Shown here: positions 15,590-39,546 of the stretch, piece by piece | Layout of the letters: every line of letters starts with the position of its first letter | Position numbering within the stretch: the first letter of the stretch is position 1 | Origin: Thermoanaerobaculales bacterium | GTDB lineage: Bacteria; Acidobacteriota; Thermoanaerobaculia; Thermoanaerobaculales; Sulfomarinibacteraceae | Length of the DNA stretch: 53,609 nt | Assembly (NCBI GenBank): GCA_021107705.1 | Contig: JAIOSJ010000317.1 | Span: 1 to 53,609, forward strand | Reading direction: 5' to 3' | Program-made: the position numbers and the translations under genes | The notes under the pieces: model-generated | The model's input: only the letters and a program-made list of their open reading frames with translations | Told to the model about the DNA's origin: nothing | The model's database searches: none

Positions 15590-15768
15590 GCCGTAATATC
15601 CCACCGAGCTTCGTAACGAAGGCGACAAAGAGTAGTTAGATATTGCGTTTTTCGGAAATCGGGCGACATAGTCGCAGGATCACTCCGTCGAGGAGAACGA
15701 TGTGCGAAAAGTACAACAGATGACTGCCAGGAGCCACCCGCAGTAGACAACTGGTGAGATTATGTGGG
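15590..15768 (+). repeat. 179-bp MITE-like repeat, diverged copy
   Basis: This stretch aligns without a gap to 25636-25814 (constant offset of 10046) at roughly 80 percent identity over the central 158 bases, counted by eye. The right end CTGGTGAGA is identical in both copies; the left terminal repeat is degraded here. It fills most of the gap between pilM and rpmB and ends two bases before the rpmB stop codon. No transposase is encoded. The minus strand is open for ~40 codons in both copies, but this is more likely chance than a gene. It may serve as the rpmB transcript's 3' region. Confidence 0.7.
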
Positions 15769-15769
15769 G

Positions 15770-24028: not shown

Positions 24029-24056
24029 CCCGCACTTCTTACCGGCTGTCTACCGG
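24029..24056 (-). repeat. Partial end of the 179-bp repeat family
   Basis: GCCCGCACTTCTTACCGGC and the adjoining TGTCTACC closely match the reverse complement of the right end of the full copy at 25636-25814 (GCCCGCGTTTCTCACCAGC then TGTCTGCT). About 28 bases are recognisable. It sits between the convergent DUF3467 and HtrA genes. Confidence 0.5.
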
Positions 24057-25563: not shown

Positions 25564-25635
25564 CAATTGCCTCCACAGCCCTTCAGGGCTCACCCCAAGT
25601 AAACCTAGCAATCAACGTGCCATATTCCGCTGGAG

Positions 25636-25814
25636 GCCCGCACTTCTCACCAGGTTTCGTAGCGAGGGCTGCGAAGGGTCGTTAGATGTTGGGTTTCTCG
25701 GGAATCGGGCGACGCAGTCGTAGCAGCGCTCCGTCGAGGAGAACGATTTGCGAAAAGCACGACAGATGGCTGACATGCGCCGCCCGCAGCAGACAGCTGG
25801 TGAGAAACGCGGGC
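25636..25814 (+). repeat. 179-bp MITE-like repeat with terminal inverted repeats, best copy
   Basis: The element is bounded by imperfect inverted ends: GCCCGCACTTCTCACCAG (25636-25653) and CTGGTGAGAAACGCGGGC (25797-25814), 16 of 18 positions complementary. A diverged full-length copy is at 15590-15768, and end fragments lie near 24029 and 35064-35118. No transposase lies inside, so it would be a non-autonomous element. It fills the gap between the HtrA and GAF-GGDEF genes. No target-site duplication was seen. Confidence 0.72.
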
Positions 25815-25860
25815 TAACGCTGTGGGAAAGAAAAATATGCCAAAAAGGCGCATATTCATC

Positions 25861-34555: not shown

Positions 34556-34574
34556 ACCTAAATTGAGCGATTCT
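34556..34574 (+). repeat. 19-bp motif shared with 53096-53114
   Basis: ACCTAAATTGAGCGATTCT here differs by one base from ACCTAAACTGAGCGATTCT at 53096-53114, in the same orientation. Here it covers the stop codon of the PilY1 remnant; there it stands ahead of a decayed gene. It may mark the end of a mobile or repeated element. Confidence 0.45.
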
Positions 34575-35142
34575 CAGCGGCGATCTGCACCAGGCTCGGC
34601 CGCGAGAAGAACGGTTGATCCGGGCCGGCGTCGAACAGCACCGCTGGCTGCCAATAGGTGACCGAGTCAACAGTGACGGCGCCGATCCTGTCGCCGTAGG
34701 CCGTAGCGGAGATCGGCCCGGGTTTGCCGATCTCCATTCGGTAGACCTTGCCCGCTGTCGTGCCCCAGTAAAGGGTATCGACGAAGCCGTCAATGTCGGC
34801 GTCGCTTCCAGACAAGGTGGTGGGAACCTGGCCGTCTACTTCGCTCTTGAAGAGAATGTGGCCGGTTTCGACATCCACGCCGTAGATATAGTAATAACCC
34901 TCGTCGTTGAGCGGCTCACGCAAGGAGCCATCGACACGATACTCACCGCTGTATTCGGTGCCGTCGACGGTGATTTTTTGGCCATTAGCATAATTGGAAT
35001 TGCGACCTGAGGGGCGCGGAGTCGTACTCGACAGTCCGTCGAGCACACCGAAGGGAGCAAACGCAACAGATTTCTGTACATCTCCGGTCGTAGTAGAAGA
35101 TTGGTGAGAAATGCTGGCTAGTTCCCGTCCGAAAACGGCCAT
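34558..35142 (-). pseudogene. PilY1 C-terminal domain fragment
   Basis: This 194-codon frame matches part of the beta-propeller region of the full PilY1 at 45712-49650. Paired stretches are YGVDVETGHILFKSEV / YGVDVATGEILLKVAL, DIDGFVDTLYWGTTAGKVYRMEI / DFDGFAEKLYLATTAGKIYRLDL, and FDAGPDQPFFSRPSLVQ / FAAEGDQPFFMRPTLAP. About 1100 N-terminal residues and the last ~200 are missing. The first ~25 codons of the frame derive from the repeat end at 35064-35118, and the stop falls in the 19-bp motif at 34556. There is no signal peptide. It is a relic of a second pilY1, between pilT and moxR. Confidence 0.8.
35064..35118 (+). repeat. Partial right end of the 179-bp repeat family
   Basis: GTAGTAGAAGATTGGTGAG followed by AAATGCTGGC matches the right end of the full copy (CAGCAGACAGCTGGTGAGAAACGCGGGC). 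Weaker similarity continues leftward to about 35064. It forms the truncated edge of the PilY1 remnant. Confidence 0.5.
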
Positions 35143-38972: not shown

Positions 38973-39347
38973 ATGTACCACATTAAAGGCAAAGTGACGC
39001 TCCAAGCGCACGTTGACATTCCTGCGGGCACGTCCGAAGAAGAGTATGCCCGGAGGGGATTTTTCGGGCGTACCAGCCATCTGTACCGGAGTGAACCTCC
39101 GGGTACGGGCCCCACTCAAGTTAAGGTGCAACATCAGGGCCGGATCTCGACGATCACCTACCCGTTCAACCCGATCAATACCGTCGGCTGGAAGGGTGAT
39201 CTCACGGTGTGGCAACTCAACATCCGCGACATTCGGCCGATCTCTTCCGAACGCTACCACCTGCCGCCGACAGCCCACATCACGTTTTTGATGCAGAATG
39301 CGGCGCCCAATAGGGTATTCCACCCGAGGGGTGCGGATTGTACTTGA
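38973..39347 (+). pseudogene. Internally deleted homogentisate 1,2-dioxygenase-like gene
   Basis: The 124-codon frame begins well (AGGAGGG just upstream of ATG) and carries two recognisable pieces. The N-terminal part has a GFFGRTSHLYRSEPP run like the GF.G..S.LYH..PP of homogentisate dioxygenases. The second half, FNPINTVGWKGDLTVWQLNI then RDIRPI, RYHLPPTAHITF and VFHPR, matches the conserved C-half block (VGW.G.L....NI.D..P....H.PP..H.TF). The middle of the cupin, including most of the iron-site region, is absent, and the end is truncated. Full-length enzymes are ~380-440 residues. I read it as a decayed relic with a large internal deletion. Confidence 0.62.
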
Positions 39348-39546
39348 TAGTTCGCAGGAAAGTGCGCATCGCCCGAGAGGGCGATCACGTCAAAGCTGTG
39401 GGGCCGCGAAGGGGCCAGCATTGGTTGGAGAGCATGCCGGGGCGAGAAAACGCCGCTGGGTGTGGTGCATCACCGACCACAGAAGATTGGCGGTGGGAAG
39501 TGCGGGTTAAGGTTTGCCCTGGCGAAGGCAGGGCTACAATGTATTG
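39348..39546. other. Intergenic region before the Ser/Thr kinase
   Basis: 199 bases with no gene. AGAAGATTGG...TGGGAAGTGCGGG near 39481-39509 loosely resembles the repeat end at 35094-35118 but is too diverged to annotate firmly. A promoter for the kinase is expected here but no clear hexamers stand out. Confidence 0.4.

Follow-up and report, generated by a model that had tools for sequence, protein, structure and literature searches.

What holds the length of a short repeat constant when about a fifth of its letters have changed? The question is raised by the window, a stretch of 53,609 nucleotides from a Thermoanaerobaculales bacterium, in which a sequence-only reading had noticed a non-autonomous 179-bp repeat with inverted ends and no coding content at 25636-25814, together with an ungapped homologue of about 80% identity at 15590-15768. 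It had proposed that a structured RNA or recurrent mobilisation keeps the length constant, and had named two outcomes that would refute it: no further copies in the genome, or copies at syntenic positions only, without mobile ends. Neither was found. Both proposals were supported, the former by covariation and strand-specific wobble pairs, the latter by a 4-bp YTAR target duplication and IS1380-type ends.

The repeat at 25636-25814 is a full element of subfamily 1 (copy 1), recognised by a strict pattern and by a model of the core. Its body (CCCG...CGGG) occupies 25637-25813 on the + strand, and the unit is 183 bp when TA at each end is included. The left 15-bp terminal repeat, CCCGCACTTCTCACC (25637-25651, +), is an IS1380-type end; the right one, CCCGCGTTTCTCACC as read on the - strand, lies at 25799-25813. 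They enclose a structured core of 147 nt (25652-25798), the fold of which is conserved on the + strand (128.4 bits and E 9e-35 with the core model, RNA fold z = -5.25). The right flank, CTAA at 25814-25817, is the target duplication, and a decayed GAGG (25633-25636) stands at the equivalent position on the left. Of the 18 positions in each inverted end, 15 match and not 16, as had been claimed. The absence of coding content held for the 183-bp element, which encodes no IS1380 transposase.

The homologue, copy 2 (15591-15769, +; core 15606-15752; flanks CCAG and CTAG), is diverged but ungapped as claimed, with 81% identity to copy 1 over 161 bases (15599-15759 against 25645-25805). Its predicted fold is lost and its strand bias is gone. 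Of three further fragments suspected in the window, the supposed end fragment at 35064-35118 proved to be the right part of a larger, 5'-truncated copy of another subfamily (copy 3, approximately 35000-35117, +, with CTAG at 35118-35121; core model 49.7 bits, E 1e-12) within a pilY1 gene fragment. A PilY1-like protein fragment at 34558-35142 (-) overlaps this copy, with a weak Pfam match below the cut-off, and a broken pilY1 is therefore plausible. The possible end at 39481-39509 could be firmed up as the right end of copy 4, a decayed copy with extra internal sequence and approximate limits of 39310-39506 (+), followed by TTAA at 39507-39510. The fragment at 24029-24056 (+) is indeed the remnant of an element end, merely a short one. 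All copies had been said to lie in gaps or at gene ends; this may be no more than a consequence of the target, possibly because YTAR contains TAA or TAG, and no statistical test was made.

The genome of the window comprises 4.32 Mb in 444 contigs. The strict pattern found 44 full-length copies in it (none in a reversed control), the terminal repeat gave 198 matches (none in the control), and at least 140 matches to the core were obtained at E<=1e-3, mostly 143-150 nt long; the last count is a lower bound, 150 candidates having been scored. Because of these counts a chance or two-copy repeat can be rejected. Short (181-186 bp), multicopy, bounded by inverted ends and without a transposase gene, the element fits the definition of a MITE in these respects, as it does in having a target-site duplication. 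A variant of subfamily 1 of 233-235 bp has a longer and different middle segment (G000: C106, C170, C194, C208, C250, C342, C367, C414).

The target duplication is 4 bp, YTAR, mostly CTAG and TTAG. In 138 elements the base before TA agrees between the left and right ends, and so does the base after it (p = 6e-18 and 7e-8); flank identity ends beyond 4 bp, 69 of the 138 are identical, and control comparisons were weak or null. The element and its target duplication are secure, and a TA-only duplication of the IS630 type was dropped in favour of YTAR. The same arrangement is seen in IS1380-family elements: in ISPa33, ISMaq4, ISPosp7 and an Acidovorax IS1380 a YTAR duplication surrounds ends of the kind CCCGGATTTCTCATGA or CCCGGATATTTCAC, ISPa33 and ISMaq4 with CCCGGATTTCTCAT(GA), ISPosp7 and the Acidovorax copy with the CCCGGATATTTCAC type (the named IS are from plasmids). 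These IS differ from our element in that it has no transposase gene, and no relation to the core was seen. The element's own ends, CCCGCATATCTCACCA...TGGTGAGCGATGCGGG between two CTAG flanks, occur on L336, an IS1380 of 982 bp with an internal deletion, from a gammaproteobacterial MAG which also holds short elements with such ends. In another MAG, CTAG followed by CCAGGATTTCTCACC adjoins the ORF of a partial IS1380 (L300). Intact IS1380 elements share the end type, the close match being confined to L336 and L300. While the similarity of the ends is read from the sequences, transposition by IS1380 enzymes is inferred from ends and target; on this basis we regard IS1380-type mobilisation as likely.

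No intact IS1380 partner with these ends was found in the genome of the window. Its sole full-length IS1380 ORF (C388, L331: 212-1750, - strand) matches NCBIfam NF033539 just over the cut-off (4e-57), and the element's ends were not found nearby. IS701 (PF13546), considered as mobiliser on account of YTAR, is nearly absent, and neither of the two DDE_Tnp_1 (PF01609) matches in this genome has these ends. None of the ORFs beside unpaired ends looked transposase-like, as judged by eye without a domain search. In L213 and L214 a 166-bp element is nested in one of 246 bp with the same end type; the empty-site comparison was ambiguous. Many MAGs (L114-L231, e.g. L130, L135, L161, L180, L218, L227) carry the same terminal repeat around other interiors, the lengths of these elements clustering near 132-138, 165, 220 and 244-249 bp; in L218 and L227 the predicted fold energy also differs greatly between strands.

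The interior of the element is conserved in its pairing. An alignment of 68 elements below 92% identity (A1) gave a consensus structure of 41 pairs, 30 of which have changes on both sides; in helices 4 and 5, the two inner helices, all 19 pairs do. Changes on both sides filled 485 cells compared with 170 in shuffles, and sliding the partners destroyed the signal (score 0.525 for the true partners, at most 0.131 after sliding). Wobble pairs in the core are strand-biased (318 G-U, 28 A-C), and those in the terminal repeats are not (30 G-U, 29 A-C). Picking pairs on the same alignment on which they are counted favours G-U, an effect that was only partly controlled; with G-U disallowed in pair choice, five inner pairs remained and the bias was still 26:6.

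Predicted stabilities, which do not depend on the alignment, point to the same strand. The + strand interior was the more stable in all 68 elements (mean -66.5 against -46.1 kcal/mol; orientation taken from sequence motifs), and the same was true of 36 of 36 cores taken from other genomes; there a model that itself uses structure had assigned the strand. Single folds of distant cores share one plan: a basal helix, then an internal loop and two long helices, with a hairpin at the tip. The conserved internal loop consists of CGUNGCGAG facing GCAGNAGA, and the terminal hairpin is of the GGCGUACU...AGUACGUC type. Distant genomes have kept the unpaired motifs UUCGUNGCGAG and GCAGNAGA, as well as the length. 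Rfam 15 gave no match to the element at the gathering threshold and none to copy 1 at E<=5; a search with 14 diverged loci at E<=1 returned chance-level miRNA matches in one locus only. While covariation and strand bias are observed, we consider it likely that a strand-specific fold is what has been conserved. Since only one strand is concerned, the fold most likely acts as RNA made from that strand; that the conserved molecule is RNA rather than single-stranded DNA is probable, an inference made without any transcript having been seen.

Full-length copies matching the strict pattern were found in the window genome and in 12 of 60 relatives, confined to family f1. The core is distributed far more widely. 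A core model built without the terminal repeats (R1) matched 43 of the 297 genomes sampled from the phylum; these belong to many families, and the matched stretches measure about 143-149 nt (at most 10 candidates scored per genome). Outside its training set, R1 matched MAGs named Gammaproteobacteria (L129), Gemmatimonadetes (L120), Fermentibacteria (L191), Deltaproteobacteria (L187) and Myxococcales (L204, L165), all among loci found through the terminal repeat alone and representing at least four other lineages. L188 and L146 (Gammaproteobacteria) and L208 (Pirellulales) belonged to the training set and match by construction. Binning errors in the MAGs remain possible for the cross-phylum matches. 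The closest named elements are in Acidobacteriota MAGs (L183, L148, L205, L210, L127). A search of plasmids and phages with one related element gave no match. One genome, G013, contains a pair of neighbouring cores (L379) separated by about 33 bp.

Related cores bear different terminal repeats, which are usually paired with each other. The two 15-bp ends of one element differ on average by 1.5 mismatches, compared with 4.5 when ends are shuffled between elements. The cores of L111 and L112:2718 are 86% identical, yet on either side about 7 of the 15 end positions differ: one copy has CCCGCAAATCTCACC/CCCGCATATCTCACC and the other CCCGGACTATTCATG on both sides. In G009, each of four copies (L355, L383, L394, L395) has its own paired ends, 15-17 bp long and different from those of the other three; none of them resembles IS1380 ends or is flanked by YTAR. 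L350 and L393 (G005) and L352 (G013) likewise lack YTAR flanks, and their ends pair perfectly or nearly so but do not look like those of IS1380. Mobility alone does not explain such ends; those of G009 might be due to a different mobiliser, to insertion into palindromes already present, or to pairing that outlasted mobility. Among 20 copies from G005, G008, G009 and G013 no conserved neighbours were found save one weak protein match.

When selection acts on the fold is less clear. Reconstruction by parsimony on a tree gave, for single transitions away from Watson-Crick pairs, 35 to G-U and 5 to A-C on internal branches, and 63 and 25 on terminal ones; these ratios are not significantly different (p = 0.07). 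In subfamily 1 the recent changes are unbiased (12 kept, 10 broken). The data would fit a fold that is needed in propagating lineages and relaxed in resident copies; this remains possible and unproved. With crude gene calls, no preferred orientation towards neighbouring genes was detected (24 sense, 24 antisense, co-directional pairs).

The explanation that we think likely is that these are IS1380-type MITEs built around a conserved structured core, probably an RNA, the role of the fold being inferred. IS1380-family transposases would move the non-autonomous element in trans, recognising its 15-bp ends and duplicating the 4-bp YTAR target. The core of about 146 nt would fold into a single long rod closed by a terminal hairpin, its helices fixed and its internal loops conserved, and the terminal repeats would be the basal helix of this rod. 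The fold would be kept in lineages that continue jumping, and the core could swap its terminal repeats. The fold is probably required for something, and a role in the element's own spread is our best guess, likewise inferred: it may, for example, bind the transposase or a host protein, or limit harm after insertion, rather than serve the host. Several points speak against this explanation. The genome has no intact IS1380 with these ends, no transcript was seen, and G-T is tolerated by single-stranded DNA; recent changes in subfamily 1 are unbiased, changes on terminal branches are biased as well as those on internal ones, copy 2 has lost its fold, and orientation shows no preference. The few copies with paired non-IS1380 ends and no YTAR, and the way in which pairs and strand were chosen before counting, also weigh against it.

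It might be thought that the element is a plain palindromic MITE, its interior a decayed long inverted repeat in which arm-to-arm correction (template switching at quasi-palindromes) created the covariation and a fold without function. The arms can be aligned across most of their length, long-stem folding is common in bacterial MITE transcripts (PMC2229807), and the unbiased recent changes in subfamily 1 would also be expected. However, correction yields Watson-Crick pairs without strand preference, and the observed ratio of G-U to A-C is 318:28 inside against 30:29 in the terminal repeats; moreover, the unpaired motifs and the length are kept in distant genomes. We therefore consider this unlikely. 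The same grade applies to the proposal that what is conserved is a single-stranded DNA which folds, in the course of replication, natural transformation or transposition, into a hairpin that an enzyme recognises. Strand-specific DNA folds are functional in attC sites and IS200/IS605, G-T wobble is tolerated, and the + strand of copy 1 beats shuffles with DNA parameters too (z -4.15). Against this, IS1380 transposases are DDE enzymes that act on double-stranded DNA, which the 4-bp duplication fits, and no link between the elements and a HUH or tyrosine recombinase emerged, although no specific search was made.

Least credible, and very unlikely in our view, is a family of regulatory or structural RNA genes that serve the host and happen to sit in mobile elements. 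In its favour, the four G009 copies keep perfectly paired non-IS1380 ends without YTAR, as if pairing had outlasted mobility. However, the 20 copies from four relatives have no shared neighbours, orientation is not preferred, copy number is high and variable, and copy 2 has lost its fold.

As a MITE the element is of a known kind, and long folded transcripts are known for Correia/NEMIS, ERIC and others (PMC2229807). Correia/NEMIS of Neisseria is a MITE of similar size with TA ends and a long-stem transcript, for which a role through RNase III has been proposed (PMC2229807). According to published descriptions (the sequences were not directly compared) its terminal repeats, size and ends differ from ours, and it is not known to have a core conserved across phyla. 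ERIC (IRU, RU-1) of enterobacteria is also palindromic with TA ends, a 127-bp repeat with an orientation-dependent effect on mRNA stability (PMC2229807), but differs in size and ends from our element, which has IS1380-type ends and no orientation bias. REP/REPIN sequences share high copy number, palindromic structure and a mostly intergenic position; REPs are 20-40 bp (PMC3733652), and a 183-bp unit with long terminal repeats and a 4-bp duplication does not meet the REP/REPIN criterion. TIMEs, miniature elements derived from Tn3, are likewise non-autonomous, contain conserved stretches in the core and have transcripts predicted to fold (PMC4133298), but have Tn3-type ends and are usually single-copy. 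Open-access literature on the end sequences, on IS1380 with MITEs and on structured non-autonomous elements yielded nothing on this family, and no core that shows strand-specific covariation, spans phyla and swaps terminal repeats was found described there, which is only weak evidence of novelty.

MITEs are usually viewed as deletion derivatives with an interior that is passive filler. Here it is the interior that is best conserved in shape, with length, helices, internal loops and one strand held across distant genomes, and the terminal repeats that vary. If the fold is an RNA that the element needs in order to spread, it would be a structured RNA belonging to a DNA transposon without genes. 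It would then also be a widespread, high-copy RNA family absent from Rfam, and would account for many unexplained repeats in MAGs. A bolder reading, which we regard as no more than possible, is a selfish family of structured RNAs, each with a core of about 146 nt, that spreads through several phyla by adopting whatever IS1380-type ends are available; the RNA, its basal helix formed by the terminal repeats, would take a working part in mobilisation, and in some lineages the paired RNA would persist once mobility had gone.
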